Below, in pieces: positions 38,076-63,214 of a stretch of DNA of 64,000 nt. A model generated the notes under the pieces. The model did not search any database, was not told the DNA's origin, and was given only the letters and a program-made list of their open reading frames with translations. The DNA is taken from the NCBI RefSeq assembly GCF_014201615.1, contig NZ_JACHEU010000001.1, forward strand, positions 2,065,631-2,129,630, given 5' to 3'. The position numbers and the translations under genes were made by a program. The stretch comes from Aquamicrobium lusatiense. GTDB lineage: Bacteria > Pseudomonadota > Alphaproteobacteria > Rhizobiales > Rhizobiaceae. Each line of letters begins with the position of its first letter. Within the stretch, counting starts at the first letter, position 1.

Positions 38076-38194
38076 CTTTATGGGTAGGCTTGACTACTGG
38101 TTCCGTACTGTGATCAGGATATGGAGCCGTCGCCCAAATCGATTTCAGAAGGCGTTGCTACGGTGCCGACAACTCCCAGACAGAGGCGGCACCC

Positions 38195-38407: not shown

Positions 38408-38561
38408 TGGTGGGCCGTATCGGTTGGTTTCCAGACGATAGAACCGGCACAGCCAATCATTTCCGACAGTTACGTGAAATCCTGCGGCGGACGGTTCCTC
38501 CGCTCGCAAAGAAAAGCCCGGCACGTTTTGCGGACGTGGCCGGGCTAGAAAGTGCATTCCA

Positions 38562-43856: not shown

Positions 43857-44078
43857 ATGAAGCTTCTCACAGTTCAGGACGTCGCGGACGCGATGAAGGT
43901 CTCCGAGAAAACGGTCCGACGACTGATCAAGCGCGGTGATCTTGCCGCCTACAAAGTGGGCGAGCGCGGTCAACTCCGCGTCAAAGAGTGCGACCTTGAG
44001 GGGTACTTGGAGGCGCAGCGAGTGGAGGTCGGATCGACGGGAGAAGCGAATGCGGAAGGGACGGAATCAGGCGAATGA
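43857..44078 (+). CDS. Small HTH protein, left operon leader
   Basis: A 73-residue HTH_17/excisionase-type protein (LLTVQDVADAMKVSEKTVRRLIKRGDLAAYKVGERGQLRVKECDLEGYL) with an acidic tail. The start is preceded by a strong GAGGA/AGGAA ribosome site. Its stop overlaps the GHKL ATPase start (ATGA). It is probably a regulator of the island. A similar HTH protein leads the opposite operon at 63214. Confidence 0.85.
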   Translation: MKLLTVQDVADAMKVSEKTVRRLIKRGDLAAYKVGERGQLRVKECDLEGYLEAQRVEVGSTGEANAEGTESGE

Positions 44079-45634
44079 ACACCACTAGACAACAGGACTT
44101 CTCGATTGTCGCCGTCGACAAGTTCATCCAGGCGACCCGCGACTCGGGGTACAAGGGAACGTCGAATGCTGTCGCAGAACTTGTCGACAACTCGCTGCAG
44201 GCGGGCGCGACCTCAATCACGGTGTCCCTCACGGTGGATGAGGAAGAGGACGGGCGCTCGATCGTCCTAACCGTTATCGACAACGGATCTGGCATGGACG
44301 CCCAGACCTTGCGGACTGCGCTTCGGTTCGGCGGTAGCACTCGCTTCAACGATCGTGACGGCCTTGGGCGTTACGGCATGGGTCTGCCGAACAGTTCGTT
44401 GAGCCAGGCTAAGCGGGTCACGGTGCATAGTTGGAACTCGAAGCGCGGTCAGGTACTCACTTCCTATCTCGATCTCGAGATGATTGCGGCCGGGAAACTG
44501 ACCGAGGTGCCGCAGCCACGTTGGGTCAAACGACCAGAGTTCGTAAATGGATATGAGTCTGGCACCGCCGTAACTTGGTCGCGCTGCGACCGGCTCGATC
44601 ACAAGCGCATTTCTACGATCACACGGAAACTCTTGGGGGCTCTGGGGCGGCAGTTCCGACACTTCTTGTGGAACGGCGTGTCCATCAAGGTGAACGGCGA
44701 CGCTGTACAGCCCATCGACCCGCTCTTCCTCCACCCTGCCGCGCTGTACAGTGGCGCAACTCAGTTCGCAGAGGACATGGTCTACGAGGTTGCAGCGAAC
44801 CCCGACGACCCCAGCATCACCGGTATCGTGAAGGTACGCTTTTCGGAACTGCCTGTCGACGATTGGTCGAAGTTGAGTAACGAGGAGAAGAGAGCCCGCG
44901 GGATCGCTAAGGGTGCGGGCGTATCAATCGTACGTGCGGGGCGCGAGGTGGATTACGGCTGGTTCTTCCTCGGAGGAAAGCGCCGCGAGAACTACGACGA
45001 CTGGTGGCGCTGCGAGATCAGGTTCGACCCAATCCTAGACGAGGCGTTTGGCATCACCCACACGAAGCAGCAAATCCGGCCACGCCTCCACCTCATCGAG
45101 GCACTGAGCGCAGATTTGGAGGTGATGGCTCGCGCACTCAATAGCCGCGCGAGAAAGGCACACCTAAATGCGAAGGTCGCGGAGCGATTCACTAGGTCTG
45201 AATACCGCGCAAGCGAGAAGGACGAGATGCTGGCGCCGCTGCCACCGAAGCCGCGGCTCCGCGACAAGAGGGTCCTCGACGCACTGGGCAAGAAACTGAC
45301 GTCAACCGAGAGCGCACGCGACAATTGTGGTGGCTCGACTGAATACCGAATCGTCCCTACCGCACTAAACGAGACCGCCTTCTTCAACTATGCGCGCGAC
45401 CAAGGTCGGCTGATCCTCGTGCTAAACCCGGAACACCCATTCTATAAGCTTGTTTACAAGCCTCTGCTTGAATCGGACAGTCCAAGTGACGAGATCGTGC
45501 GATCGCAGATCGACTTACTGCTGCTCGCGGCGGCGCGTGCCGAGGCGCTGCTCGAGAACAAAGAGAGTCTCAAAGTCGCCGAGCAGTTGCGGGCCGATTG
45601 GAGTGACACGCTAGCTACTTTCCTGAACGGTTAG
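44075..45634 (+). CDS. MORC/Hsp90-like GHKL ATPase
   Basis: A 519-residue GHKL ATPase. The N-box is AVAELVDNSLQAGA (Glu35, Asn39), the G1 loop is VIDNGSGMD (69-74), and the lid/G2 is GLGRYGMGLPNSSLSQA (96-111). An S5-like second domain and a C-terminal helical region follow. The wide gap between motifs and the RYGMG form fit MORC-like ATPases rather than MutL or Hsp90. MORC-like ATPases act on DNA by ATP-driven dimer clamping and occur in predicted bacterial conflict systems. It may provide DNA loading or sensing for the helicases in this island. That role is inference. Confidence 0.82.
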   Translation: MNTTRQQDFSIVAVDKFIQATRDSGYKGTSNAVAELVDNSLQAGATSITVSLTVDEEEDGRSIVLTVIDNGSGMDAQTLRTALRFGGSTRFNDRDGLGRYGMGLPNSSLSQAKRVTVHSWNSKRGQVLTSYLDLEMIAAGKLTEVPQPRWVKRPEFVNGYESGTAVTWSRCDRLDHKRISTITRKLLGALGRQFRHFLWNGVSIKVNGDAVQPIDPLFLHPAALYSGATQFAEDMVYEVAANPDDPSITGIVKVRFSELPVDDWSKLSNEEKRARGIAKGAGVSIVRAGREVDYGWFFLGGKRRENYDDWWRCEIRFDPILDEAFGITHTKQQIRPRLHLIEALSADLEVMARALNSRARKAHLNAKVAERFTRSEYRASEKDEMLAPLPPKPRLRDKRVLDALGKKLTSTESARDNCGGSTEYRIVPTALNETAFFNYARDQGRLILVLNPEHPFYKLVYKPLLESDSPSDEIVRSQIDLLLLAAARAEALLENKESLKVAEQLRADWSDTLATFLNG

Positions 45635-45637
45635 AGG

Positions 45638-47689
45638 ATGAGCCGCCAAGCACAAAACAACTGGGTCGTGCTCTCACCACCACTCCCAGAACGCAGCCCC
45701 GCAAAGCAGGCCTTCCGCGCCCATGCGGCAAGTTTGTCAAAACTGCTGAGCGAGGAATGCGACGGCGAGAACTTCGATGAGGCTCTCAAGCGCTTACTGC
45801 GCGTCCACACCGCAGACGAGCACGATGCCGCCTTACGCGCTGCGTTGTGCGTCTTGACCGACCTGGCTCGGCAGCGCTGGTCCATCCGGGTCAACGAGGA
45901 ACGCGGCGTCGAGGTGAAGCGCCCCGCAGAAAATCAACTCGACCCTTTGCGCGAGAAGGCGCGCATCCGAGCCCAGGAACTCATCAAGCGCGATGAGCAA
46001 CTTCGAGAACCCGCGGCGAGGCGGTTCATTAAGGGGATGGAGCAGAAGTCCTTCCACAATGGGAATTTAGTGTCGATTTACTCGGTCATTCGGGACGGGC
46101 GAGAACTCGCGGAGTCGCTCCGCGCCGCGCGCGCACTAAAAGGCGAAGATCGCGTTCGCGCGTTGAGGGAGGTGATCAATCCCTACCTCCAATTCGTCGA
46201 CGGGGCCGAGTACTGCGAGCACACCGGGCTCCGTCTGCAAGACATCTGGCGATACTTCCGCCACACATGGACGAACCAGTACACGGCCACACCTGGGCGC
46301 TCAATGGCCTTCCTAATCCGAGACCGCGCGCGGGAGTACCACCCAGTCATAGGGATCGGGTCTCTCGGGAGCCCAATTGTGCAAATCCGCGAGCGCGATG
46401 CCTGGATAGGCTGGCAACCAGAGGCGTTCTTAGAGTTCGCTAGCGAGTCGCCGTCCGCAGAACTCGGGATTTGGCTCCACAAAACGGTGGAAACAGCTAT
46501 TGGCGAGATCTACCTCGACGACTTTTTTGAGGAAGAACTGCTGTCTCCGCTCGACCTCCGCACTCCGACGCCGGAGGTCCTTCGGGATCTGTCCGCTTTC
46601 GGGGAGAACCAGCGGGAACTCCACCATCGACTTGCCAGTTCGAAGGATCTGAAGCGCTCAACAAAGCGCGACGATACGGGCAGCACTGATGCGCACTGGA
46701 AGGCGCGTGCACGGACACACCTCTACCGCAGCAAACGAGCGCTCTCACTGGTGGACATGCTCCGATCGCGCATGGTTCTTCAGCAGCACCTGTCGTCGCC
46801 GCCAACTAGCGAAGAAGTGCGCGCGCTGCTCAACACGAGCGATGGGCGCAGGATAGTGAAGAACATCCTGCGGAAAGCCAAGGCCGACCGCGTCGGTATC
46901 GCGATGGCGGACATAACGGTTTGCGGCTCGGTAGCCCCATATAACCTGATCCTCGGGGGGAAACTCGTCTCGATGCTCGCAGCCAGCCCGGAGGTCGTGA
47001 CCGCCTACCGCAACAAGTATCTAGCGCAAGAGAGCGAAATCGCTTCCTCGATGGCGGGACGGCCGATTATCCGGCGATCAGAACTCGTGTTCCTAGGGAC
47101 GACTTCGCTCTACGGGATCGGATCCAGCCAATACAACAGGTTGCGGATGCCGGCCGAGCGCATCGGTGGCAAGAAAGGCGAGAAACTCGCGTTTCTTGAA
47201 CTTGGTAAGTCAGACGCCTATGGGACTTCGCAATTTAGTTCGGACACGGTCAGAGCCCTCGTCTCTCTGGTCCAGCAGTCAAGTAACGGCCAACGTGTCA
47301 ACAGCATTTTCGGCGAGGGCGTGAGCCCAAAACTCCGGAAGATCCGAGATGGGCTCGACGCGCTCAAACTTCCGACCGACGTGCTCCTCCAGCACGGACG
47401 GCAGCGCATCGTGTATGGCGTTCCAGTCGTAAGAAACCTTCGCGAGTTCCTCCTCGGAATGGATAATGAGCCTGAGTACTGCTTCGACTTGAACGAACCA
47501 GAACGCAGCACTGGGGAGATTGGCCGCTGGTGGACAGAGCGTTGGTTGAGAAATCGCATCGAATCCGACGACGTCTTGGCGAGGATAGAACAACATACTC
47601 TAGTCCGACCTATCCGCCACGGGGCGCGGGTCGTGCTCCCTAATATCGACGACGGTCAGGCGACCCTTTTTGAAGAGTTCACATACTAG
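45638..47689 (+). CDS. DUF4338 (DruA-like) protein
   Basis: A 683-residue protein. The DUF4338 part has QDIWRYFRHTWTNQYTATPGRSMAFLIRD (near 201-229), HPVIGIGSLGSPI and RERDAWIGWQPEAF (251-264). The C-terminal half is also typical of long DUF4338 proteins: VCGSVAPYNLILGGKLVSMLAASPEVV, TTSLYGIGSSQYNRLRMP, and VNSIFGEGVSPKLRKIRDGLDAL. DUF4338 is the hallmark of DruA in Druantia type I antiphage systems. This version is longer than DruA as I know it. It starts 3 bp after the ATPase stop. Confidence 0.8.
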   Translation: MSRQAQNNWVVLSPPLPERSPAKQAFRAHAASLSKLLSEECDGENFDEALKRLLRVHTADEHDAALRAALCVLTDLARQRWSIRVNEERGVEVKRPAENQLDPLREKARIRAQELIKRDEQLREPAARRFIKGMEQKSFHNGNLVSIYSVIRDGRELAESLRAARALKGEDRVRALREVINPYLQFVDGAEYCEHTGLRLQDIWRYFRHTWTNQYTATPGRSMAFLIRDRAREYHPVIGIGSLGSPIVQIRERDAWIGWQPEAFLEFASESPSAELGIWLHKTVETAIGEIYLDDFFEEELLSPLDLRTPTPEVLRDLSAFGENQRELHHRLASSKDLKRSTKRDDTGSTDAHWKARARTHLYRSKRALSLVDMLRSRMVLQQHLSSPPTSEEVRALLNTSDGRRIVKNILRKAKADRVGIAMADITVCGSVAPYNLILGGKLVSMLAASPEVVTAYRNKYLAQESEIASSMAGRPIIRRSELVFLGTTSLYGIGSSQYNRLRMPAERIGGKKGEKLAFLELGKSDAYGTSQFSSDTVRALVSLVQQSSNGQRVNSIFGEGVSPKLRKIRDGLDALKLPTDVLLQHGRQRIVYGVPVVRNLREFLLGMDNEPEYCFDLNEPERSTGEIGRWWTERWLRNRIESDDVLARIEQHTLVRPIRHGARVVLPNIDDGQATLFEEFTY

Positions 47690-47980
47690 CGCTGAGCAAC
47701 TATGGCCCACGAGGTCCCACAACCAAGCTTTAAGCATTACAGTGCCTTGCGTGCTGCGCCGCTATCGCGTTCCAGAAAAGCATTGTCGGCTGTTCGACCG
47801 CCTATGAAAGCCAGTTCGCCGCCGGAGAGGACGAGATGCTCTTAAAGATTGCGAACGAGGGCAACTGGCGCGCGAGCGAGCGCGTCTCCAGCCACGCTGC
47901 ATCTGCGTCGTGCGACGAATGCCCGAAATTGCTCCGTGCTCACTGCGCTGTTCGGAAAAACCTATCGCGCGGCGGGCCCA
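47690..47980 (+). other. Unresolved interval before the large unknown gene
   Basis: The only gap in the left operon. An ATG at 47702 opens a 49-codon frame. Another frame reads through 47740-47985 with protein-like content (for example FQKSIVGCSTAYESQF and MLLKIANEGNWRASER) without a start. The interval may hold a decayed N-terminus, a frameshift, or simply a leader. The sequence alone does not decide. Confidence 0.4.
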
Positions 47981-50900
47981 ATGCTTGAGACGCACAACAG
48001 ACTCGACGAGAGGTACCGCACGCTCCGGGATTCAAGAACGGGGCCGGTCTTCTTTCTCGAGCACGGGTTAAGTGAAGACGAGGTCACTGACGTCTTCGCG
48101 AACGTTAGCCATGTCTTAAGCACGCACCCGATTGAAAGCGGATGGTGGCGCACCAACTGCCTCCCACTGCTCGTCGCGGCCACAGAGGTCGGGTACCGCT
48201 ATAGAGGGTCAGGGACTGACTTTTGGCCGGTATTTGAGGCCAAACTCGGCCTGCGTATCAGTGCGCCTGATCGACATCACATTCGCGATCTCTTCGCCAG
48301 CGCTGCAAAGACCTACCGAGGTGCGCAGCCGCCAGCTACCCCGTGGGCCGACGCCTTCCGCTTCATCGCCTGGCCAATCACTCACGCGCTTGTGCCTCTT
48401 GAGTTCCATCGTCCGCTCGCGCTCACGCTTGCGAACCTGCGCGTGAACGTCGGCGAACTCGATGACGATGGTCTGCACCGCGCAATCCGAATTGTTGCTT
48501 CCAACTCTTCGGCGCGGTTCGCGACTTTGCTCGAGGACGCAACTCTGGTGGTAGCCGTGACGAGAAGGTTGTTGGGTGACGACAGTGCCGAACTCTGTCC
48601 CCAGACGATGGAGCGTATCGCAACTGACCTCGCCTCCGACCAAATCGCTCGGCGCGCAGTTGCGGTCGCTCGCCGGAGACAACGCACTGTCGCGCAGCGA
48701 AAGACACCTGCCGCATCATCGTGGCTGCAACTTCCATCGATCGCAGGTTCGCTCACAATCCGACGCCAAGACAGTTCAATGACGCTCCAGGCCGCCTTTC
48801 CACAAGTGGAAGCGGACCTGCAAGGGAAACTCCGTCGAGCGCTGCGCCGTCGCCGATACGCCGCACGTCTGTGGGGCGTATCAGGGCCGGTTCCCAGTGA
48901 ACAGTTGCTCTCCGGGCTCCCCTTCACGCTCAAGTTAACGTCAGTCCCGTCAGAGGTTGCGGAACTCTTTCCAGACCTCGGCCAGGTAGAAATCGACCAG
49001 GAACTTCGCGACGTACTTGCCACCTTCGAACTGAACATCGCGTGCCCCTTGCTATTCGCCGTTGACTCCGATGAAGAAATTGGACGTCGGGTTCACGGTC
49101 CGAGTATCTCTGGCCACCGCAAGTATTGGCTCCTCTCCCCGTCAGGCGAGGGCCCTTCGGGTTTCGCAGCCCTGAGGGACGTTGGGCCGTACGACTGCTA
49201 TCTGCTAGACCCCGCGGAAGAGATCGCACGGAAGGTTCTGCGCGAACTTGGATTTCATGTGCACTTCGGCATCTCAGTTGAATTTGCAGGCAGACCTCCG
49301 CTTGAACGCGATGCGCCGGTTCCGGTCTTCGTGGTCGGCGACCAACGGACTGTGGTGCCTCGACGTGTTCCGCCAGAGGGCTTGAGTGTCCAGTTGGACG
49401 ACGAACAGGTCCATCTTTCGAGCGACGACGTCGTGACCGTTAGAGTTGAGCGAGGTGACCATACGCTGCGGGTGTCGAACGGTAGTGAGGACCGCGATTA
49501 CACGTTCCGCGGGACGCTAGCGCCTCGATCTGTGCCGCCCACGATCTGCTCAATAGAACCGCGTTTCGGTGACCTGACAGTCCAGGCGTTCTTGCGCGGC
49601 GCGCTCGAATTCGCCGTCGAGAGTTTTGCCCCGCTCGACGGCCTGGAACTTACAGTTGAGATCGATGCCAGCGGTCGAAGGCTCTTTGCCACCGCCCCGC
49701 TCGGCCCTCTCCCCTGCTCGGTTTCCTCGGAGCAGGAGCCCTTCGCGACGCTACTTGATGACGAGACTCGTGGGCTACTGGCGCGGTCTCCCTCGCTCAA
49801 ACTGCGGCTCAGCGTGGGGAACCTATGCTCACACTATATGATGTTGGAGCAGCGCGTGCGGCCCTGTTGGTGGCAGCGAACTGACGACGGTACGATTGCC
49901 CTCACAAGCGAAGTCGGGATGCTCCCCTTCGGCTGGGTGCTGGCGACCACTCCAGCGGCTCCGCCAGCGCCGGAACTCGACGACTCGCACGAAGAGGCGC
50001 GACTGCTCGCACCGATCGGGCTTGACGTCTCGGAGCACGGCGGGGTCGCCGAGTTCACCACGCTCTGCATCGCTCCCTCGCATGCGCGACTAGGGTTACC
50101 CGCTATCAAGAAGCCGATCCTCACCAGACGCCGTTACGCTGGAAATGGCGCGCTCGGCCTCGAGGACATGGTCGAGAGTTACCTAAGATGGTCCCTCGCC
50201 GAAAGTACTACGTTCATCGCCGAGATATGGCGCCGGCAGATCGCCGCGGTACTGGACGGATGGCTAACAGAAATCTGCTGCGGCGAGGAGTGGGTGCGTC
50301 GCGAGGCGGCGCTGGGCGATGTGGACCCGTGGGAAGAATTGGCCCGAGACTGCGACGAGACAGGCTTCGGACGTGACTCGTATGTCGAACTCTCGCGCGA
50401 GGACGAGGTTGAGGTGACACGCATCGCCATCCGAGAGATTCGGTCTGAGTTCCCAGACCTCTGGGCGCGCGTCGGCCCGCTTTGCGCCCTGAGCCAGGAA
50501 GACTATGAGGCGCTCGATCTGGCCTGCGCCCGCGCGTATACAGAACTTGCCGATAAGTACCGAAATAAAGGTAAGGAGGACTTCGCCACAGGGATTGCAG
50601 AGGGCGACCCCGGCGCGGCGCCAGACGACTGGGACTCCGTCCTTAGACGCGTAAAGTCTACGGCAGAACTTCAGCCGCTCGCCGAAATGCTTCTCCCATC
50701 CGACACCGCTCATGGGCTCATGACGCTCGAACCGTCCATGATGACGCTAGACGAACTTACCGAGGAACTCACCGCGTGGGCCCGAAGCGCGAGGAGAGCG
50801 CTTTCCGGGAGCGTGCCGCCAAGCGACACCCTCAAGGTAATCCTCGCGCTGTGGGCCGAGCCCGAGGCCGCCGCAAGCCTGGACTGGCGCCGCGCACTTG

Positions 50901-50992
50901 ACGTGCTGCTCGCTGAGCGGTCCGTTGCTCGCGCTGCACGATACTTGGCCCTGCGAAGTCGACGGGCGGCCCGAGGAAGTAGCAGCAGATGA
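47981..50992 (+). CDS. Large protein of unknown function in the defence operon
   Basis: A soluble protein of about 1003 residues from ATG 47981 (MLETHNRLDERYRTLRD). The frame is open back to 47849, but that extension is Arg-rich and not protein-like. No known domain is recognised. The first third is helical. Residues from about 430 to 640 look beta-rich, with repeated strand-turn patterns (VPVFVVGDQRTVVPRRVPPEG, VTVRVERGDHTLRVSNGSED) that suggest Ig-like or beta-sandwich units. The C-terminus is again helical. It has the size and place of a structural or substrate-recognition subunit. It overlaps the SNF2 gene by 4 bp. Confidence 0.75.
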   Translation: MLETHNRLDERYRTLRDSRTGPVFFLEHGLSEDEVTDVFANVSHVLSTHPIESGWWRTNCLPLLVAATEVGYRYRGSGTDFWPVFEAKLGLRISAPDRHHIRDLFASAAKTYRGAQPPATPWADAFRFIAWPITHALVPLEFHRPLALTLANLRVNVGELDDDGLHRAIRIVASNSSARFATLLEDATLVVAVTRRLLGDDSAELCPQTMERIATDLASDQIARRAVAVARRRQRTVAQRKTPAASSWLQLPSIAGSLTIRRQDSSMTLQAAFPQVEADLQGKLRRALRRRRYAARLWGVSGPVPSEQLLSGLPFTLKLTSVPSEVAELFPDLGQVEIDQELRDVLATFELNIACPLLFAVDSDEEIGRRVHGPSISGHRKYWLLSPSGEGPSGFAALRDVGPYDCYLLDPAEEIARKVLRELGFHVHFGISVEFAGRPPLERDAPVPVFVVGDQRTVVPRRVPPEGLSVQLDDEQVHLSSDDVVTVRVERGDHTLRVSNGSEDRDYTFRGTLAPRSVPPTICSIEPRFGDLTVQAFLRGALEFAVESFAPLDGLELTVEIDASGRRLFATAPLGPLPCSVSSEQEPFATLLDDETRGLLARSPSLKLRLSVGNLCSHYMMLEQRVRPCWWQRTDDGTIALTSEVGMLPFGWVLATTPAAPPAPELDDSHEEARLLAPIGLDVSEHGGVAEFTTLCIAPSHARLGLPAIKKPILTRRRYAGNGALGLEDMVESYLRWSLAESTTFIAEIWRRQIAAVLDGWLTEICCGEEWVRREAALGDVDPWEELARDCDETGFGRDSYVELSREDEVEVTRIAIREIRSEFPDLWARVGPLCALSQEDYEALDLACARAYTELADKYRNKGKEDFATGIAEGDPGAAPDDWDSVLRRVKSTAELQPLAEMLLPSDTAHGLMTLEPSMMTLDELTEELTAWARSARRALSGSVPPSDTLKVILALWAEPEAAASLDWRRALDVLLAERSVARAARYLALRSRRAARGSSSR

Positions 50993-53900
50993 GAAACATT
51001 TACGTCGACCTGTGTCTACAAATTCAAGCCGTCCGGCGCGATTTCGAACGCATCCGGACGCCGCTTGCTCCCGCAGTCGGCATAGCTGCATCGCTCTACA
51101 CACATCAGGTCGCGAACGTGCATAGGGTGCTGACGGACGTAAGGGTTAGGCATCTGCTTGCCGATGAGGTTGGGCTCGGCAAGACCGTCCAAGCTCTGAT
51201 GGTGCTGAACGCGCTTCGGAGCCAGAGGGCTGACCTGCAAGTACTGATCATGGTGCCCGATCAACTTGTCACTCAGTGGCGCGACGAGATCATGACGCGA
51301 GCTCATACCGCACCGTTCGGGGAACACGACGCAGCCGAGGGCAGGCAGTATATCCGCTTGGCTTGGGAGGAGCAGTTCGGGATGCGTGACGCCGCGGGCA
51401 ACCCGAAGTTCGCGCTCTCTGACATCGACCCCGACCGCTTCGATGTCCTCGTAGTTGATGAACTCCATCGCTTGCGCGCAGATGTCCAGGACCGGATTGT
51501 TCGCGTCGCTGCCCGCTTCGAGCACGTACTGGCGCTCACGGCGACGCCCGCCTTCCAGCACGTCAAGCGACATGCGCAGCTATTCGCGTTGCTAGAGCCG
51601 GAGCGGGCCTCGCTGGCGCGAGGAAGAATCTCCACCGGAGATCGCGGAGTTGCCGAAGGTCTGGCGGCTGGCGACGACGTCTCTAAGTGGCCCGAATGGG
51701 CTGCGGCCGCCGTGGTCAATGAGTTTATCGAGGCTGATCGCACCGCGGCGTCCGCCTCAGTGCATTCCAGCCTTTGCACTGCGGCGCTAGCTCATTGCGC
51801 GTACCGTAGGGTCATTCGAACGAGACGGGTGGATTACAGCGGCGTGCTCCCTCGCCGCTGTCACCGGCCGCTTGTCGTCGAGCCTCTCGGCGCGGAAGTT
51901 GAGCGACAGTCCTTGATGTGGCAGTACTTCGAACACCTCGGCGATCTGAGCCGGGAATTCGATTCAGTACGTCTCGCGAAACGTGTTGTCCTCAGCCCAC
52001 CGTCGCTCGAGCAGCGCGTAGACTTCCTCCGGCGAAGAGGGCACGAGCGCGCTGGCCTGCTTGAGCGCGTCAAACCGCTCGTTCACCGCAGCCAAGGTGA
52101 CTCCCGCGCCGATGCCCTCATCGATCTTCTGGCGGAAATCTGGACCGAGGACCCAACTGAACGCGTACTCGTAGCAGCGCAGGACAACCTGACAGTCGAT
52201 TATCTCTTTGATCTCGTCCAGGCGCGACTCTCGGTCGTTGGTCCACTCTCCCAGCGAGTCCCGCTGGTTGCAGCTCGGGTTCGCCAAGGGATGATGACGG
52301 GGGCGGTCGAGGATCTCGGTGGATTTGGCAACGAGACAAACGAGAACCTTGAGGCCTTTCAACGCGGCGACGCGCAGGTATTGTTCGCGCCAGAGGCCGT
52401 GCAAGTCGGCCTGAATCTCCAATGCGCACGCGTTCTGGTTCTTTACAGTGTCCCGTGGCGCCCCGAGGAAGTTGAGCAGTGGATCGGCAGGCTCGACAGG
52501 ATCGGCAACGTCGCCGCCTTCTCGAACGAGGGCGGTGCAAAGACGATCGACGTGTACACCATTGCTCAGCGTGGCCTCGTCGATGAGAAGGTCGTCACTG
52601 TTCTCCAGCGCTTCCATGTCTTTGAGAGAAGTGTGAACCTCGACGGAGACCACCTCGACGAGCTAGCGAGCCTCATTGAAGACGCCGCGTTACGCCCAAA
52701 ACGGATCGACTGGCGAGAACTAGCGGACACTACGGAGGAGATGGCGGCCGAAGACGAGGTACAGGAACTCGCCTCTGCTCTGCGCAAGCACCTCCCTTGG
52801 ACAGTCGACTTAGCCACCGCTGAGCGCCAGTGGCTGGATTCAATACCTCCCGCTCCTCCTGTCCTCAAAGCTCTTCCCGAGCACTCGGCGTTAGGCCCCC
52901 GAGCGTGGGATCGGGCGCTCGAGGGGATGCTAAGTTTGCTTGACTATGCTGCCGACTACCACATCCGCTGGAACACAGACCCGGAGACAGGTGGCCGTTT
53001 TCGGACGCTGTGGTATCAGTTCGGTGAGAAGGGGATGTACGGTCGGCGAGAGGTCCGGTCGAAGGTGGTTTTCTCGTTCGGCGCGGATCCATCGCACGAG
53101 CGCAGCCCACGACACGCGTACGCATTCATAACTCGTCGCGGTGACATCGGGACTCCCCCTCGGCGGAGCGTCACCATGGTGCTGGACGGTGACCATGTCC
53201 GACGGACTCTTCGGTTCCTCAACTTTGGCGATGCGCTCCACGATGAACTAATTGACGGCTGGTTACCGCAACGTAATGGCCTATTGAAGCTGAGCGTCAC
53301 GTTCTTCGACGATCACAGCGTTTGGCAGTACCGGGCGCCCGGTCTGTACCTTCTTAGGCTGTCCGTCATTGATCCGGCGGATGCACTCATGGCACGAGGC
53401 TTGGAGGAGAGGACACTCGGAGCCGTGGTCCAAGCCGCAACTCTCAGTGAAATTGATCGACTTCCCGATCTGTTGCGTCCTTTTAGGAAAGTTATGCGTT
53501 GCGCGATGGAAGCTGACGTTCGTTGGCTCCGCGCACAGTTCACCGCGTGCATGACCCTCGATTTACGAAGACAGGAGCACGGAAATTGGGTCCAGGTCGA
53601 AGCCGAGGAGGCTGCGGCGCTCTTCAACCCTATGGCACATGAGCGCAATGGCGTCCCGAGGGCAAGCGACCTGCGCAAAGACGGGGCGGACATCGCCTCC
53701 GCTGAGGCGGAACTGTCTAGTCAGCGGCAGGCTGACGCGACGGCCGCACGCTCAGCGTGGAGCCATCGCTTTTCTAACTTTGGGGAGTCGCTCACGGCTC
53801 GCTTGGTGGTCGTCGAAGAGGAAGGCCACGATGCGGTCGCAATTGCCACTGAGGAACTGCGTCGGGCTGAGGCGGCTCTTGAGTTGGCACGGGAGCGAGG

Positions 53901-54081: not shown

Positions 54082-54097
54082 CCGTGGGAGCGTTGGC

Positions 54098-55108
54098 CTA
54101 GGTTAGCAGTCGCCACAGGTCGGGGCCCTTCGGGCTCACATCCCATGCCCATGCGCCGCTAGGACTTCCAAGGATATCCATGGCCGCGCGCAACTGAACC
54201 GGCGCCGGGAACGTTAACTGGATCCTGAGCCCGTCTGCACGCACGACCTCCTCGGCGCCGACACGCCTCCCACGCGCGAGCACAGCCCATCGCCACTCAT
54301 CCTCGTCGTAGAGGTCAAGCGCCCGCTGACCGTCTCCAGCCACGGCGACGATGCATGGGTGCCAGTGAGTGTCTCCGTAGCCGCGGCGATAGGCACACCA
54401 CAGCCCCTCTCCCGGATCTGTCGTCCACCTACCCTCAGGCTGCGCCGAGTTGTGACGGCCGAAGAAATCTCCTGGACGCCCCCCTAGAAAACGCACCTCA
54501 GCGTCAGCACTGACCGTCAGTCCTTCCTCGGTCAGTGCCTCCTCAAGTAAGTCCCAGAATCGGCCGAGCGTGACCGCGTCGCTCCTCGCAGGCTGCCGCA
54601 TTCGCCTACTTGCGTGACGAAGGTAGCCTGGAGGCACCAACCACTCCGAGAGCGATACCTCCTGCACCCCAGCAAGTTCCAAAATAGCGACTTCGTCGTC
54701 AGTGCCGACACGAAGTCTGCGAACTATGTCGTGGTTGTCGCTGTCCACCAGCGAGAGTCCATCGGGGGGCTCCGACACTCCCAGAAAAGCGGAGACACCC
54801 TCACCCACTGAGATCCACCTCGGTGTAGTCGGCGCCAAATAGAGTTCGTGCCCAACGTAAACCTCTTCGCATTCGCCTATATCGACAAGCCGCCGTAGGA
54901 CGCGTGGGATATCGCTAACGTCTTCAACGCCGCTGGCCCGGAACTCGGCGCGTGCGTGCTTGACAACATCTCGCTTGGGACTCAGCCCCCAGCGGCTCAG
55001 CGGCGCGCGCACAATATTTGCGATTGCACGTTCGCTCGGCCTCCCCTCGGCATCGAGGTAGCCAAACTGGGTGCTGAGTTGGGCACGAGACTGCGTTCGA
55101 AGTCTCAT
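54098..55108 (-). CDS. Unknown protein, last gene of the right defence operon
   Basis: A soluble protein of 336 residues without a recognised domain. ATG 55108 (MRLRTQSRAQL) lies 2 bp after the NERD-helicase stop. A longer start at 55156 would overlap that gene. The N-terminal 90 residues look like winged-helix DNA-binding material (PLSRWGLSPKRDVVKHARAEF, DIPRVLRRLVDIGECEEVYV). The rest is mixed alpha/beta with several Trp. It ends 16 bp from the SNF2 gene stop on the other strand. Confidence 0.75.
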   Translation of the reverse strand: MRLRTQSRAQLSTQFGYLDAEGRPSERAIANIVRAPLSRWGLSPKRDVVKHARAEFRASGVEDVSDIPRVLRRLVDIGECEEVYVGHELYLAPTTPRWISVGEGVSAFLGVSEPPDGLSLVDSDNHDIVRRLRVGTDDEVAILELAGVQEVSLSEWLVPPGYLRHASRRMRQPARSDAVTLGRFWDLLEEALTEEGLTVSADAEVRFLGGRPGDFFGRHNSAQPEGRWTTDPGEGLWCAYRRGYGDTHWHPCIVAVAGDGQRALDLYDEDEWRWAVLARGRRVGAEEVVRADGLRIQLTFPAPVQLRAAMDILGSPSGAWAWDVSPKGPDLWRLLT

Positions 55109-55110
55109 GC

Positions 55111-56841
55111 CTACGCCTCGGAAACTGATTGGGCCGCTGTTATAACCTCGCGACACTGGTCCCCATGCACGACCGCGATCAGCAGCACCTTAGCGCGTGT
55201 GCACGCGACGTAGAGGTCCTCCCTTCGGAACAGTCGGCCAAAACCGTCGAGATCATACAGCACGACCACCTCGGCCTCGAGTCCCTTGAATGAGCGGGCC
55301 GTGGTTACGAGTATACCCCCACCGTCGCGCCACTCCTCCGCTGACATAACTAGAGGTACGCCATCAATGTCCGTCAGGTCTGACAGACTACCGTTCTCCT
55401 TGGCTGCAGGTCCTATCACCGCGATCTGTCTAGGCGCCACGTCCTCCCGCTGCAACAACGACCGTAGTTCCTGAATTACCAACCCCTTTTGCTGCCTAGA
55501 GGAATTGGCGCGGAGCACTCGCAGAGCACTCCCCTGGGGTGCACGCGGGAATATGTGACACTCTAGATTGAGAACCGAGGCGCTCGCCAAGGCGATCCGC
55601 CTTGTATTTCGGCAGTTGATCGTCAACTTGAAGCGCGCTGCAAATTCGACATCAGGCCACTGCACTTCACCGCGAAGCGACTGATTGGGATCTATGAAGG
55701 CATAAAGGGGGCCATCTGCCTCCGACAGAAGCGACTGTGTCAGCGTGTACCACCAGCCCAACGAGAAGTCTTGCGCCTCGTCCACGACAATGGCGTCGAA
55801 GTGGATCTCGCGACCCTCCATGGCGAGATCGACAATGGCCTGCTCCATGAGGTCAGGGACTTCGTCGTTCCAGAATGCCTCCGTTCGAGCGCCACCAGCC
55901 GCAGGGCGGAAATCTAAGCCCGCCTCAGTTGCAAGTTCCGCGGCGAGACCATGGAAATGCTTGACCGTCAGCAAATCGCGGAAGTCGGCCGTACTCGGAT
56001 CTTCCTGCACCTGTCGCCGAATCCAGGCCGCGAGTTCCTTGTTGAAGCAGACGAACAGGGTCTTCATACCCTCGCGCGCGAAAGCTAGCGCCCGATGTAT
56101 CGCGAGGAACGTCTTACCAGACCCAGCCACTCCCTCAACCAGCACCCGGTCTTGGACGTAGAGACCGGTGAACACTTGGGCCTGTGTCTCGGTAAGTTCG
56201 AGCAACTGGTTGGCCACCAGTTCAATATCCGGGCCTACGGGCCTGAAGACCCTGAACTTGGGCATCAGGCAGTCGTTCACCAGCATCGTGTATCGATCGC
56301 GAGGAAGCAATCGCGGTTCATCGGTCCAAGCCGCGAATGCAGTCTCGATTGCCTGTGCCATGAAGGGGAGATTGCGCCGAGAGATCACGATGGCCTTGTC
56401 GGCGTGAGGTGGCGGCAAACCCTCGTAGTCTAGGTGTGGGAAGACAACCGCATAACCATGTACGAGGTCCTGCTTTCGGATCCGTTCTCCCGATCGCTCT
56501 CGTACGATTTCCAAAAGCGCGTGCATGTTGCGCTGCGCCTGCCTAAACGGGTCTTGGAACTCGTCCGGCCCGGTCTTTGTGTCGCGGAACCATCGGTAGC
56601 CATCGTAGCGGATCGTATCCCCTCCCTTGACCTCGAGGATGAGAAGACCGCGGGAAGGGTGGAGCACGACAAAATCCGCTTCGCCTTCGGCAAGAGCCTT
56701 GCTGCGCCACGGGCGAAGCCACGGATAGGAATGTAGAACGATATAATCGTCGCCCAACTGGTCGCGTAGCGCGACATATACAGGTTCCTCGGAGGCGTGC
56801 TGGAGTTGGGAAGGATCAACGTCGGGCAGCATCCGGGCCAT
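55111..56841 (-). CDS. NERD nuclease / UvrD-like SF1 helicase fusion
   Basis: A 576-residue protein. The N-terminal NERD domain is a PD-(D/E)xK-type nuclease fold with Asp56 and the catalytic E-x-K in EGEADFVVLHPSRGLLILEVKGG (about 52-74). A UvrD/Rep-like SF1 helicase follows, with Walker A VEGVAGSGKTFLAIH, motif II IVVDEAQDFS, motif IV TINCRNTRRIA, and the C-terminal ARSFKGLEAEVVVLYD and LYVACTRAKVLL. It may unwind and cut invading DNA. Its ATG overlaps the stop of the DUF1998 helicase by 1 bp (TAATG), so the two are coupled. Confidence 0.88.
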   Translation of the reverse strand: MARMLPDVDPSQLQHASEEPVYVALRDQLGDDYIVLHSYPWLRPWRSKALAEGEADFVVLHPSRGLLILEVKGGDTIRYDGYRWFRDTKTGPDEFQDPFRQAQRNMHALLEIVRERSGERIRKQDLVHGYAVVFPHLDYEGLPPPHADKAIVISRRNLPFMAQAIETAFAAWTDEPRLLPRDRYTMLVNDCLMPKFRVFRPVGPDIELVANQLLELTETQAQVFTGLYVQDRVLVEGVAGSGKTFLAIHRALAFAREGMKTLFVCFNKELAAWIRRQVQEDPSTADFRDLLTVKHFHGLAAELATEAGLDFRPAAGGARTEAFWNDEVPDLMEQAIVDLAMEGREIHFDAIVVDEAQDFSLGWWYTLTQSLLSEADGPLYAFIDPNQSLRGEVQWPDVEFAARFKLTINCRNTRRIALASASVLNLECHIFPRAPQGSALRVLRANSSRQQKGLVIQELRSLLQREDVAPRQIAVIGPAAKENGSLSDLTDIDGVPLVMSAEEWRDGGGILVTTARSFKGLEAEVVVLYDLDGFGRLFRREDLYVACTRAKVLLIAVVHGDQCREVITAAQSVSEA

Positions 56842-59800
56842 TACGCCTCTCCCAACTTGTGGAGGACACCGTTTACGAACACGCCAAACGCTCTCCCTAG
56901 GACGCTCACGTCCTGGGCCCGCGGCGTCTCCGAGCGGGGCGCGACATGGGATAGATACAGGACACTCACCTTGTCCTTCCGGAGGCGCGGCAAGCCAAAG
57001 GTCCAGCGGTCGTTTGTGGCGTTGAAGGCCCCAGCCTTGCTGACAAGCAAGCGAGGCGTGTGGTCTTTGTTGCCGACTACGAAGTCATCCTGATGCGTCG
57101 GTGTGAAGACCACCCAAGCCCCCGCGGCGAACTCACTATTTCCCATTCGCTCCAGCGTGGGGCGTGCTAGCTGAACGATGAACGATCCCGATGGGGCACC
57201 GCCAACCGCCACCCTAGCGAGCGGCTCTGGCTGCTCGTCGGTAGCGAGAGAGGCCAAGTCGTAGACGGGGCAGCCGTCGTCTTCTGAGGGGAGAAACGCA
57301 GGTAGCGTGAATCCAGAGTTGCCGCCTGTTTTTGCCCCAGTGGCCTCCCGAACCGCTGCTGGGAGTGCTCTGTCCACGAGCAACTTATCCACTACGACGT
57401 GAGGCGCTCCGCTCGCGATGAGTGCTCTGCCGGTCGCTGAGCCGGCCGCGCCGGGCGTCATCGGATGCCCGAGCACCACGATCCGACCCGAGAGGTCCAA
57501 CAGCCTTAGTCCCCCCTCTAGCCGCTCCACTGTATGTCCCGACTCAGTCAGGTCCACCTCTAGCGCTTGAAGGAGGCGTTCTTCGTCATCGGTCCCGAGT
57601 GTAGGCGCTTCACCATGAATGACGTGGCGAATGAATGCCGCGCCCAAGTTGCGGTCGAGATACTTGTGGTCCCACTTGTTCTTGTAGCTGCGCAGGCACT
57701 CGTAGCAGGAATGCGTGCAGTCACAGGACTCCAAGCGCGTGAGGGCCTCCTCGAAGAGCCTTTTCGGATCTGCGGCCGCAGAGCGCACAAACCCGGCGCC
57801 GCCCGGTGTGAGGTCATAAAGGTATACCTCGACTTCGTTCCCCGTCCGGCCTCCGCTTGTCATCGCCACGCGGAACTCAGCGCCGATATCAGACTCTTCT
57901 ATGTCCATGATCATTGCCGCTGCGGAGGCAAGCGCCTCCGCGACGGTGGTGAGCACAATCTTGGCCACGACCGACCCCGGCGGTAGGGCGACAGCGCCGG
58001 CCAATTGAAAGCGGAATAGAGCGATGTCCGTCTCAAACTCATTGCCTAGGACCACCACCGTGGGGGTACCGTTGCAACTCGCGCCATGCGGATGATGGTC
58101 TGGGTTTGGACGAGGGTGACCGCCCCGCTGGAAGCGGCCGGCAGCCCACCCGTTCGGCTCTGCTCGACCGCACTTCGGGCAATAGAGGAAGCCCGGCTTC
58201 ATCTGATCATGGGAGCCCGTGTTCGTTAGAACGAGCCGCTGCTTGGCAGTCCAGATTTCGTAGCCTGCGCCGTTGGTTGCAATGTCCGACCTTTCGGCTG
58301 GTCCGCTGTCGGTGAAGGGCGCGCTCAGTTTCGCGCGGGTCGGCCTTGTGGGAGTGGGGCTGTCATCTAGGGGGAGCTCAGCGTCGAGGTCGACCGGATG
58401 GGCGAAGCCCGGCGGACGAAGCCAGCGCGTACCGACCCCTAGGGAACCGCCAGAACCACAGGCTGGGCAGTCTAGAACTTGGCCAACATAGTGTTCGTCG
58501 CTCCTCTGCTCGACGCGAGCGTAACCGCAGCGGTCGCACTCGAAGTAGACTTTCATGCCGAACCACGCCTGCCAGCAGTCCCGGCGGTTGAATGGCGTCC
58601 AGATGGCGAACGAGTAGTGGCGCTCACCGTTCACCCAAACCTCTCGACCTGGCGCATAGCCCGATAGCGCTTGGTTGAGACCGAGTTGCGGAGAGTACTT
58701 GAGGACTGCCTTGCGCTCGGTACTCGCGGCCGGATCAAAGACGTGAAAGGTCACCACATCAGTAGGGAACGCGTATCGTGGGAGCACCCCACGATCAAAG
58801 AGACGATCCAGCAACTTCTCCGGATCGAGCCCTCCGTCGGGCGCGTCCTCGGTCCGATCAACGTCCGCCGAGGTGTGCGCTGCTTCAGGTGCGCCGGTAT
58901 CGACCGCATCGAAGTCTACGTCGTCACCCCAGCCCATCATTAGCGTGCCACGGGCAGCTTGTGCCTCCTCCCCGCCACCTTCCGCGACGAGTTCCTCGAC
59001 GGCGGGTGAGAACTGATCCTCCACCTCCGATGCCTCCAACGGGCCGGCGCCCACCTCGCGCAGTGCGGACAGCAGCGCCAAAGGCACGTCGTCCACGAAC
59101 CCTGGTGCCGCAGCAACAACGGACGCAGGGACGATCTCCTCTAACGCACCGCGGACTCGGGCCGCCTCTCGATTGAGCCATGCCTTGAGGCCGGCGTAGG
59201 AGAACTCCATCGCATCTCCGGTCCGGAAGTCCTGCAGCATTCCGAGGCTCTCGAAGACGTTGGAACTGACGCTTTCGTCGTCGGGATCGGCGATCGCGGC
59301 CATCTGGAACATGCTCATCACGAGCGCGAAGCAGTGCCGGCGAATGATCTCAAGGTTGTCCAGGTTCAGCGTCGGGTCAGGCACTGGGCCGCTAACCATC
59401 GCTGCGGGGTGCGAGTAGAACTCCTGGTCATGGCTGTCCGCGCCGCAGTAGGTAATTACGGTCGAGAGAGCAGAGCCCCGGCGACCGGCCCGGCCGGCAC
59501 GTTGCTGGTAATTTGCCCGCCCAGGCGGCACGTTGCGCAAGGCTACAGCCGTGAGGCTGCCAATGTCGATGCCGACTTCCATCGTCGTCGTGCATGACAG
59601 AACGTCGATAGGGCCGTCGCGCCGCCCCTCCGGACCCTCAACGTCGAGATCTTGGAACCTCAGTTCATGCCATTCCGCTCGCGCCACTGCGCCGCTGTTG
59701 CTGCTGTCGTTGAGCGCAGCGGAGTGCTCGGCGGCGACGTATGGGTGGGGCGCGTAATCGGGCTCGGCCGCGAGCCTCTCCACATGTCGGCGGAAGTGCC

Positions 59801-62800
59801 CCTTTCGCGACCGGAACACGGTGTCGGTCGCAGGATCTAGCGCGCTAGTCGTGCCGGTGCAGACCCTGTGGCCCGGACGAACGCGGCAGCGATCGGCGGC
59901 GAGCGGGTTGAACGGCTGGGCTGTGGTGCACGTATCGCAGCGGCGCCACTCGATTTCCTCTGTAACCACTCGGAGCTTGGCGGCCCTCAGTATAAATCCA
60001 TTGGCGGTCTCGTTGGTCCCGAAGACCTTCGAGAGGAACTTCCCCCATTCCGACGGCGCCCCTGTTCGTCCTTTGAGGTTTGCGTTGAACCACTTCGTAC
60101 CGACGAAATCCTTCACGAACGATGGAAACGTCGCCTTTGTGCGCCGTATCTTCGCCCCTGTGCTAGCGTCGAGCCACTCGCTCGGCGTGGTGGGCAGATA
60201 CAATGCGTGACTAAGGACCGCGTCGTTCAGCCAAAGATCAAGCAGCGCCCAACGGCGCTCTTCCTCGCTAAGGTGACCGGGCTCAGGCGGCGCCGGCAAC
60301 TTCTGGAACGCTCGCAGGTCTGTTGGGTCGAGCGAGGCGCGGATTGTCGCCAAGCCAAGGGCGCTGAGCCCGGTATGTGGGTCCTTCAGCACCGGATAGA
60401 GCGCGAGCATCAGGGCCTTATTTGTGCGGTGCGTGTTCAGTTCCGCTGACCTGCTGCGGATTTCCTGCTCCGTGGTTGGCGGGGCGCTAGTCAGCAACTC
60501 CCGGAATAGAGCAAGATCCTCCTCGAAGTGCGGCGCCTGAGCGGGGCGCAGGGTGACACCGTTCATGGCGCAGCCTGTCAGGAGGGCGGCGTAGGCATGG
60601 TCGAGTGTCACCGGACCTCCGAAACGCTGCTCTAGCCGGCTCAACCCGTCTAGGAGCAGCGGCCGCACCGCGTCGCGCATCGAATACTGTTGAAGTTTCC
60701 CGGCAAGCCGTGAGGCTGCTTGTCGCCCGTCGGAGAAGATGAGTGCTTTGCGCCCCTTGAGCGGAGTGTCGACCTCTTGGCGCGGGGGCTGCTCGAGGAC
60801 CTGCGAGGAAACGATCTCCTGGAACGGCTCATCGCCTTTCGTCACATGGTCCATTATGTGGTCTGAACCGTCCGCTCCGCAGCGGAGGCAGTTTTGAAAC
60901 TCTCCGGGGCTCGTGTCCTTTTGCCCAAGAGGCGGGAGCCATATCTCACGAGCTGCGTCGTTCCCTGATCCTACGCGGCCAGACACCGGATCCAGGTACT
61001 CGAACCGCGCTCCTGAGCCTGCGGGAGGTTCCTCCAGTGAGAGAAATACGGGCTGGACGACCCCGTCCACGCCGTCCACTTCACCGATATCCTCTGCCCA
61101 CAGATAGTCGGGAGTGCCGGGATCGAACGAATAGGCCTTAAAGTATGCGCAGCCACACGACCGGCACGTGTAAACTTCGAACACCCGCGCTCCACACTCG
61201 CATGTCCGACGAGGCTGAGCGTAAAGCGCTCCAGTCGGCGGTAATGTGTCCCAACGCTCTCGCTGAGAGTCGGAGACATGGGAGCACTGCGGATCCGAGC
61301 ATGCCCATAAGCCCGGGAGCCCTCGAAAGAATGCATGGGCGCGAGCAGCTAGGAGTGGTGCCTGCTTGCTGTCAGGCTTCGCCATGGAAGTGAGTTCAAC
61401 CAAGGCGTTAGTGGCAACGCGGGCAAGATCAGCCTCAACTTCCGGAAAGAGCCGTGAGGCCAGTTCTCCGATCTCCTGAGCCGGTCCCACGCCTGCAGAG
61501 TCACGTTCGAGGTCTTCGTCGGCTACCGCGCCGCTTGTGAGGTTCACGAGGCGACCGGTCACCGGGAACTGCTTGAGCGCGCGGTGGAGAGCCCTCCCCA
61601 ACGGATCTCCGTCAGGCGACGCGCTTGCCTCGTCCAGCAGGGACTCAGACGAGACTTGATCGTCTGCCAACTGAAGAACCGGCATGACCGCGTCAAGACG
61701 AGCCGCCAGGTCGCCTTCGTAGACCCGGCGGAGGTCCACTCCCGCTAGCGTCTCCGCAACTCGCCTGTCGCCGGGCCCGGAGGGATGAGACGCGCGCTTC
61801 GTCCCTCTAAGAACCTCAAATCCTTCTGGAGGCTTGCCCGCGAGGTCAGCGGCGAACTTCTTTGCCGCTGAAGGATCTGAAAACGACGCGCTCGTACAGA
61901 TGACCTGCAACTGCTCCGGACGAAGTGCCAGTCGGTTACGTAGGCGGCGGATCAACATCGCCACCTCAGTCCCCTGTGCGCCCCTGTAAAGGTGGGCCTC
62001 GTCCAAAATGAGGATCAGCCGCTCTTCTGGATGATCCGCATAGTACTCGGCGGTCACCCTGAAGATGTCCCGTTCAATGGGACGAAGGAGCATGTACTCC
62101 AGCATCGAGTAATTGGTGACAAGGAGATCAGGAACCCCCTCCTGCGCCTCGTGCCGCAGGAATAGTTCTGGATCCTCTGGACGCTCGACAGTACGGACCC
62201 ACTCGTCACCTCGCTTCCAAGCGCCCTTGCCCAGCCAGGCGCTCATGCCGTCCTCGCAATCCGGACTGGTTGGCGGCTTCGCTGGCCATTTGCCGCGGCG
62301 CCGCAACTCGCCGATCAAGCGTTTCACGTCGGCATCAGAAGCTGCGCGATCTTCGAGTTTCGTGAAGAACTCGAGCGGCTCTTTTAAGCGCGTCCAGTGC
62401 TTTTTAGTGTCCTCCCTGCGGCTGCCTGGGTACAGGGTCCGCCCCGTATAGCGAGCGAACTTCATTGGGCGCCCACCTTTGTCAGTGAACCAGCGTGCGA
62501 CGTTGTTGTCGCCGAAGAGCACACGCAAGCGGCCGAGTTGATCGTTGACCAGCGCGTTCATCGGGTAGAGGAGTAACGCCCGAACGGCGCGCGTCGAGAA
62601 CGAGCTCCCGCTCATAGCCTCCTCCGCCATTCGGCCCAATATCGGGAGGAGGAAGGTCTCAGTCTTGCCCGAACCAGTTCCGGTCGTCACGACGAGGTCA
62701 CGGAACGGTGGTGTAAGCGCGAGTTCGAGAGCATGCGCCTGGTGGTCGTACGGCGGATCGAAAATAACCCCTCGCTCGCCGAGCCATCTTAGAAGGCCCG

Positions 62801-63005
62801 CCACATCCGACGGAAGCGAAAGTTCCTCATAACGTCGCGAAGCTGCGTACCTCGCGGTGCTCTCTAGGTAGGGTGTCTGCGCAATGGCCCCACTCCGAGA
62901 GAGCAATTCATCTCGTAGATCGACCAAGGCGGGGTTCGAAATGTGGTAGGTGGAAGTAATGTAGGTGCGGAGCGCGTCCGAATAATGCTGGAGTTCTTCG
63001 TACAC
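56841..63005 (-). CDS. Large DUF1998 SF2 helicase, DruE/DrmA-like
   Basis: A 2054-residue helicase. It has Walker A [17 protein letters not shown] (105-121), motif II [18 protein letters not shown], and motif V/[27 protein letters not shown] followed by [13 protein letters not shown]. Zinc-binding clusters occur at CSDPQCSH...[18 protein letters not shown] and [11 protein letters not shown]...CPACGSGG. The C-terminal DUF1998 domain has the Cys cluster [16 protein letters not shown]. Druantia DruE is a DUF1998 helicase of about this length; DISARM DrmA is shorter. The start is GTG 63005, 2 bp after the HTH gene stop, with the ribosome site overlapping that stop. Confidence 0.88.
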   Translation of the reverse strand: [2054 protein letters not shown]

Positions 63006-63007
63006 CT

Positions 63008-63214
63008 TTAATCCTCGCTGCCTCGCAAAACACTAGCGGCTTCATTGGCGCCGCCCTGACGGACCCACCGATCGACATCTGCCAGCTTAAGCTTCCAGTG
63101 CCGGCCAACGCGGTACGCAGGAAGACCCTTCGTTTCGATCCAACGGTAGATAGTGTCCCGTGAGATACCGAGATGCTCAGCGACATCTGTCACGGAGACC
63201 CAACGATCGCTCAT
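63008..63214 (-). CDS. Small HTH protein, right operon leader
   Basis: A 68-residue excisionase-type HTH (MSDRWVSVTDVAEHLGISRDTIYRWIETKG, AYRVGRHWKLKLADVDRWVRQGG). ATG 63214 gives a complete HTH; the frame is open upstream to 63406 without protein-like content. It precedes the DUF1998 helicase by 2 bp. It mirrors the HTH gene at the left end of the island. Confidence 0.85.
   Translation of the reverse strand: MSDRWVSVTDVAEHLGISRDTIYRWIETKGLPAYRVGRHWKLKLADVDRWVRQGGANEAASVLRGSED

Follow-up and report, generated by a model that had tools for sequence, protein, structure and literature searches.

A probably mobile island in Aquamicrobium lusatiense predicted to be a Druantia type I variant with a DISARM-type gene set and a MORC-DruA pair

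The window analyzed here, a 64,000-nucleotide stretch of the Aquamicrobium lusatiense genome, contains a 19-kb island (positions 43857 to 63214) of nine genes, called as open reading frames (ORFs) and organized into two convergent operons. The plus-strand operon consists, in order, of a small helix-turn-helix gene (HTH1), a MORC-like GHKL ATPase, DruA, a large protein denoted P3, and an SNF2 ATPase; the minus-strand operon comprises HTH2, DruE, a NERD nuclease fused to a superfamily 1 helicase (NERD-SF1), and DruD (Table 1). An initial annotation, made from the sequence alone, had described eight or nine packed genes over 19 kb with 16 bp between the terminal stops of the two operons. All the genes it named are present as ORFs, their number is nine, the facing SNF2 and DruD stop codons are indeed 16 bp apart, and the outer coordinates it gave are the starts of HTH1 and HTH2, one per operon. 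The overlapping or abutting starts that it also described hold for neighbors in both operons, with HTH1 and GHKL overlapping by 4 bp, GHKL and DruA separated by 3 bp, and P3 and SNF2 overlapping by 4 bp on the plus strand, and with a 2-bp gap between DruD and NERD-SF1, a 1-bp overlap between NERD-SF1 and DruE, and a 2-bp gap between DruE and HTH2 on the minus strand. They do not hold for DruA and P3, the sole loose junction, which measures 291 bp if P3 starts at ATG 47981 and 159 bp if it starts at TTG 47849; the ATG was adopted because the homologs start there. The GC content at third codon positions is alike in the seven large genes (0.66 to 0.72), and the catalytic motifs of GHKL, SNF2, NERD-SF1, and DruE are intact.

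Table 1. Features of the island and its immediate surroundings (window coordinates)
Feature	Coordinates	Strand	Basis
HTH1, small HTH_17-like protein, heads plus operon	43857..44078	+	sequence; resembles HTH2
MORC-like GHKL ATPase, 519 aa	44075..45634	+	Pfam, PADLOC, PDB profile, alignment
DruA (DUF4338), long form, 683 aa	45638..47689	+	PADLOC, Pfam
P3, about 1003 aa	47981..50992	+	homologs, tree
SNF2/RapA-like ATPase (DrmD/DpdE/BrxH kin), 1030 aa	50989..54081	+	PADLOC, RapA, motifs
DruD-like protein, 336 aa	54098..55108	-	Leisingera ortholog, profile-profile, alignment
NERD nuclease fused to SF1 helicase, 576 aa	55111..56841	-	Pfam, PADLOC, motifs
DruE, YprA-family SF2 helicase with MZB zinc domain, 2054 aa, GTG start	56841..63005	-	PADLOC, Pfam, motifs
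HTH2, small HTH_17 protein, heads minus operon	63008..63214	-	Pfam, PADLOC
DNA unit common to Arsenicitalea locus, 97-99% identity	43433..64000, on to 64675 of extended window		DNA alignment; includes tail-fiber-like gene
Phage tail-fiber-like gene, part of 394 aa, extends beyond window	63385..64000	-	PHROG/Pfam; first gene of tail module outside window
Left neighbors outside system: tyrosine integrase (36676-38049) and DUF5906 protein (38562-39692)	36676..39692	+	Pfam

Three of the proteins are related to components of Druantia type I. The largest, initially labeled a DruE/DrmA-like DUF1998 helicase, matches the PADLOC DruE1 model at 1453.3 bits over residues 4 to 1888, compared with at most 568 bits for DruE2 to DruE4 and 49.5 bits for the best DrmA model, so that only the DruE half of the label was retained; it contains the Pfam domains DEAD, Helicase_C, and MZB (8.2e-14) and intact GTGSGKT, DEAH, and QRAGRAGR motifs. 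DruA matches the PADLOC DruA1 model (PDLC00001) at 684.8 bits over residues 29 to 669 and the Pfam DruA family at 1.3e-29, and shows a weak fold resemblance to GNAT. The DruD-like protein has no direct match in PADLOC. Its ortholog in Leisingera matches the DruD1 model at 1.3e-5, profile-profile comparison of the island protein with DruD yields 88% probability (E 2.8e-6), and by this indirect route the 336-aa protein is identified as the putative DruD expected of a Druantia I locus. Of the two large unknowns counted originally, one is this much smaller protein, leaving P3 as the only large unknown.

No match to P3 was found in Pfam, PADLOC, or PDB, and none to the Pseudomonas putida DruB and DruC by hhalign. 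P3 is a distant relative of a 955-aa protein of four-gene Druantia I loci, where its gene lies between those of DruA and DruD (hhalign probability 99.9%, E 7.7e-33) and is also related to the P3 proteins of DISARM-like loci described below.

The remaining proteins come from other families. The SNF2 protein scores 123 bits against DpdE, 93 against BrxH, and 84 against DrmD in PADLOC, has RapA as its nearest solved relative (1.2e-36), and retains the motifs EVGLGKT, DELH, and QWIGRLDR; it belongs to the same RapA-like superfamily as the class 1 DISARM protein DrmD, albeit with a score for DpdE above that for DrmD. NERD-SF1 combines a Pfam NERD domain (5.8e-12) with UvrD families, matches PADLOC RTasNERD-Hel at 206 bits, and possesses nuclease residues D56...E70-V-K72 and helicase motifs GVAGSGKT and DEAQ. 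The GHKL protein contains HATPase_c_3 (6.9e-24), its N-terminus matches PADLOC MzaB at 58.9 bits, and its best PDB profile match is human MORC2 (2.5e-13), ahead of MutL (1e-4); in the alignment, residues E35/D38/N39 and the motifs D69-x-G-x-G-M and G-x-G-x-G-L-P are intact. It is assigned as a predicted member of the MORC/paraMORC GHKL family, at the level of the family rather than of a subfamily. The two HTH proteins are 33% identical to each other over 45 aa, and HTH2, read as the longer ORF to position 63406, matches Pfam HTH_17 (2e-17) and PADLOC mad1 (54.5 bits).

Relatives of the island were sought by tblastn in genome surveys and among 72,556 plasmid records, which yielded 11 P3 matches, 7 of them examined (H1 to H3, H5 to H7, and H11), and 14 DruA matches, examined apart from H17 and H23. 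Thirty-one loci were tabulated together with the window, using queries from all modules and a 50-bit cutoff; because some tabulated loci supplied queries, their self-scores are inflated. The table covers loci other than L008, L011 (same record as L021), L030, L056 to L068, and small or flanking ones. Four architectures emerged. Architecture A is the four-gene order DruA-955aa-DruD-DruE, found in Nitrosococcus (L009), in L012 from the same genome as the window, and in L045, L046, and L048. In L049, the architecture A core lies behind a GHKL-long DruA pair that is 68% (GHKL) and 62% (DruA) identical to that of the window; SNF2 and NERD are absent. Architecture B is the complete seven-gene set, found in 4 of the 32 rows: the window, a near copy in Arsenicitalea (L003), Paracoccus (L021), and Leisingera (L026). 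Two further loci that end at contig borders encode parts of this set, namely P3, SNF2, DruD, NERD, and DruE in L004 (87-92% DNA identity) and DruE, NERD, and DruD at 48-76% identity in L055. Architecture C is a DISARM-like arrangement in which UvrD-DrmA-DrmB-NERD is divergent from P3-SNF2 (L005, L007, L010, which is close to L007, L043, L044, and L047). Architecture D, finally, joins the long DruA to SspF/SspG/FtsK-like genes (L020, L022, L025, L027, L028, L052, and L053, with partial forms in L024 and L054).

Several features of these loci deserve separate mention. The architecture A locus of the same genome (L012, positions 4513 to 15269, G000:C6) is a second Druantia I locus, with a short DruA, a 954-aa relative of P3, DruD, and DruE; a 654-aa gene follows DruE there, and similar-sized genes follow DruE in L045, L048, and L049. 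The UvrD protein of architecture C is GajB-like; L005 ends at the border of its plasmid record, and in L007 a dcm/vsr/MvaI-type restriction-modification set (18328 to 21338) is located about 450 bp downstream of P3-SNF2. The architecture D loci, some of which include DruE, come from haloarchaea and viral contigs and appear to be Druantia-Ssp/Dnd hybrids. On a Sinorhizobium plasmid (L008), P3-like and DruE pieces are interrupted by insertion elements.

The distant architecture B loci show which parts of the island are kept together. The seven non-HTH genes are 26-54% identical to the window queries in Leisingera and 23-51% in Paracoccus, where DruD was not found with the window queries and is identified by position and a 23% alignment. 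Both loci have the order GHKL-DruA followed by DruE>NERD>DruD><SNF2<P3, with the convergent stops 3 bp apart in Leisingera, which has two GHKL genes, and overlapping in Paracoccus. The seven-gene set and the convergent core thus recur, at 23-54% identity, in two further lineages, which is more than would be expected by chance. The co-occurrence of the two operons elsewhere, the absence of which had been named as grounds for abandoning the original proposal, was therefore found; the predicted conservation of the convergent order is borne out for the core but not for GHKL-DruA, which is at the other end of the core in Leisingera and Paracoccus. Because the window core is flipped relative to GHKL-DruA in this comparison, and because GHKL-DruA precedes a different core in L049, the core appears to be the conserved unit and GHKL-DruA an attached module. 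NERD-SF1 is present in all eight distinct tabulated loci in which P3 is linked to SNF2 (window, L005, L007, L021, L026, L043, L044, and L047), three of which contain DruE and five DrmA/DrmB.

In the midpoint-rooted P3 tree, in which long branches were flagged, all eight architecture A rows fall on one side of a branch with 100/100 support, and the three window-type rows are on the side of the DISARM-like rows. In the DruE tree, a clade of the four window-type rows (100/100) joins the six architecture A rows (99/99), apart from the DruE of P. putida, Meiothermus, and haloarchaea. In the NERD tree, window-type rows form one group and architecture C rows another, each with 100/100 support. Such a pattern is predicted if a Druantia core and a DISARM-type set were combined into a chimera.

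Judged by its sequence relationships, the island is a putative Druantia I variant that includes a DISARM-type set and a MORC-DruA pair. It was not classed as canonical Druantia I or DISARM because neither DruB/DruC nor DrmA/DrmB was found, in agreement with the early view that each of these systems explains only part of the locus. Druantia type I is reported to consist of druA, druBCD, and druE (PMC7251935). The island shares DruE1, DruA (here in its long form), and the DruD-like protein with it, and P3 is distant kin of the 955-aa protein; it differs in lacking a 50-bit tblastn match to DruB or DruC, in the addition of GHKL, SNF2, NERD-SF1, and two HTH genes, and in its two convergent operons in place of the co-directional A-B-C-D-E operon (seen in L029). 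With the DISARM-like Rhizobium and Azospirillum loci (L005, L007, L043, L044, and L047) it shares P3, on the same branch, together with SNF2 and NERD-SF1; however, its YprA helicase is a DruE and not a DrmA, it has DruA, DruD, and GHKL, and the island contains no 50-bit tblastn match to the Rhizobium DrmA or DrmB and none, with the tabulated queries, to the GajB-like UvrD. The reported lack of a methyltransferase was upheld: no such domain was detected when the eight larger ORFs of the island were scanned with Pfam, although P3 and DruD, which match no Pfam family, might hide one.

Other known systems resemble the island in part. ARMADA, as described in the accessible text of PMC12458937, has a DruE-related YprA helicase and a BrxHII/RapA-like helicase, but its PglX-like methyltransferase was not found in the island, and DruA, DruD, P3, NERD-SF1, and GHKL lie outside that description. 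Prokaryotic MORC/paraMORC operons likewise place MORC-like GHKL proteins beside SWI2/SNF2-type helicases and nucleases, but DNA methylases, frequent there, were not found here, and the main text of that paper does not mention NERD or DUF1998 (PMC2292703). The loci that combine DruA with DndFGH/SspFGH-like genes share the long DruA and, in L020, L022, L025, and L028, also DruE, but SspF/SspG/FtsK-like genes replace GHKL, P3, SNF2, and NERD. Druantia IV of PADLOC, given as DruE, DruF, and DruL (PMC8565338), differs from the island as well. The gene combination was not found described in the PMC literature searched, a corpus that excludes supplements and the original Druantia report and most subscription papers. 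The suggestion of an undescribed type nevertheless overstates the distance, given that DruA and DruE are clearly related to Druantia I, DruD is so more weakly, and P3 has kin in the four-gene Druantia I loci; the departure from Druantia I consists of the added SNF2, NERD-SF1, DISARM-side form of P3, and MORC ATPase.

The setting of the island is that of mobile DNA. As initially proposed, it lies beside a satellite and a phage gene: the integrase and DUF5906 genes on the left fit a satellite, and a tail-fiber-like ORF begins at 63385. The right flank past that gene encodes tail, spanin-like, endolysin, and tape-measure proteins. The Arsenicitalea DNA matches the extended window at 97-99% over 43433 to 64675, with differing flanks, and the integrase/DUF5906 neighbor is not common to that locus. 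A chromosomal control, an 8-kb query against the Arsenicitalea genome, matched over 2.9 kb at 74% and 0.4 kb at 67%. The 97-99% identity of the island against 74% for the chromosome suggests a recent transfer. In a copy from a metagenome-assembled genome (G933), the island DNA is 87-92% identical and a similar phage block is nearby at 83%; in L055, a phage lysozyme gene immediately precedes DruE; and the Leisingera and Paracoccus copies are plasmid-borne. An imperfect 21-bp repeat (36551 to 36571 and 43427 to 43447), possibly attachment sites, flanks the integrase/DUF5906 element; the common DNA of the island starts at 43433.

The seven-gene set is rare. P3-family matches were found in 4 of 385 genomes surveyed within the class, in 3 of 398 within the phylum, and in 5 of 199 within the family, each count including the own genome. 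The other P3 genomes with larger stretches have architecture C (G635 and G815) or A (G708 and G792). Among the survey matches, G789, G756, G093, G238, and G349 were judged on small loci only. DruA matches occur in 7 of the 385 genomes of the class, with most of the long form covered in two, the own genome and G259. Within the stretches examined, G259 has only the GHKL-DruA pair, and the match in G238 spans just 69 positions.

Taken together, the gene content, intact motifs, homology, conserved co-occurrence, phage- and plasmid-borne setting, and near-identical copy in another genome indicate that the island is probably one phage/plasmid-defense system of exchangeable modules: a Druantia I core, a DISARM-type set, and a MORC-DruA pair. 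Some observations pull the other way. Among the survey matches inspected, the complete set is confined to the own genome; the three window-type P3 rows are united in one clade in only 21% of the bootstrap replicates, and the DruE tree was flagged for long branches as well; sequence searches identified no solved relative of DruA or of P3, and the predicted model of P3 has too low a confidence to be interpreted (pLDDT 41). The GHKL-DruA pair, with one or two GHKL copies, occurs without the rest of the set in L023, L050, L051, and L093 and may work on its own, and phage genes rather than GHKL-DruA precede DruE in L055. In the viral contigs L057, L058, L060, and L063, some of which are incomplete stretches, NERD-SF1 lies near DrmA and no P3 match was found, so that the DISARM-type set is not inseparable.

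The solitary GHKL-DruA pairs and the NERD-SF1 relatives without P3 are also what would be seen if two or three independent systems (GHKL-DruA, the DruE-NERD-DruD operon, and the P3-SNF2 operon) were placed side by side, as is the variable placement of GHKL-DruA, which can flank the core at one end or the other and in L049 precedes an ordinary 955-aa/DruD/DruE core. We consider this unlikely, because the convergent core has near-touching or overlapping stops in three lineages, DruA, a P3 relative, DruD, and DruE form one locus in four-gene Druantia I, and NERD-SF1 is present in each of the eight distinct tabulated loci with SNF2-linked P3. Alternatively, the island could be a restriction-like or repair module that serves a prophage or another mobile element, for example, in superinfection or plasmid exclusion. 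The adjoining phage tail and lysis genes, the phage genes before DruE in L055, and the plasmid location of other copies fit such a role, which is compatible with a defense system; however, related defense systems are described as commonly carried by such elements (PMC12458937), and we regard this alternative as improbable. An ordinary, if divergent, Druantia type I with passenger genes, suggested by the nearly full-length matches to the DruA1 and DruE1 models and by four-gene loci without DruB/DruC, one of them in the same genome, is more improbable still, given that the SNF2, NERD, and GHKL motifs are intact and recur in distant lineages and that P3 is on the DISARM-side branch.

For the single modular system favored here, we infer a complex with antiphage activity, a role for each protein within it, and a mode of defense that may be direct or abortive. 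YprA helicases are reported to define related defense systems, among which ARMADA protection is non-abortive and type I DruE bears a predicted inactivated Vsr nuclease (PMC12458937). Work on type III proposed that DruE is a conserved DNA-processing core acting on intermediates containing single-stranded DNA, with subtype partners as triggers (PMC13192584), and in Mycolicibacterium Druantia type III is reported to block phage DNA circularization and replication, abortive infection being named in one heading (PMC13316683). Prokaryotic MORCs have been proposed to loop the DNA that lies between sites of recognition and cleavage (PMC2292703). In the island, the complex, with two SF2 motors (SNF2 and DruE) and one SF1 motor, would engage exposed or replicating invader DNA, from which the SNF2 motor would remove bound proteins; DruE and the SF1 helicase would unwind the DNA, and the NERD domain would cut it, providing the nuclease that type I DruE reportedly lacks. 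The MORC ATPase could clamp or loop the DNA such that degradation starts only on captured DNA, and DruA, DruD, and P3 might recognize the target or hold the complex together.

DUF4338 has been described as a GNAT domain fused to DndF, with protein targets suggested (PMC10853773), which agrees with the architecture D loci and the weak fold resemblance of DruA. A tentative and rather doubtful extension is that an exchangeable P3-SNF2-NERD set is common to the DISARM- and Druantia-type YprA systems, and that a GNAT-fold DruA takes the place occupied elsewhere by a DNA-modification enzyme, marking or licensing self DNA or acetylating a partner. The GNAT-like DNA-modifying enzyme Mom of phage Mu is a precedent for this idea, and DNA modification by DruA is itself speculation. 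If true, self-marking by DruA would explain why the long DruA accompanies GHKL/DruE cores in some genomes and SspFGH/DndFGH-like genes in others. More generally, the island raises the question of how a large helicase-nuclease system without a recognized methyltransferase avoids self-attack, and places a MORC-type ATPase in a defined, testable candidate defense locus. Besides ARMADA, the island would form a second link between DISARM and Druantia, and it suggests a block-wise exchange of the genes surrounding the YprA helicase.

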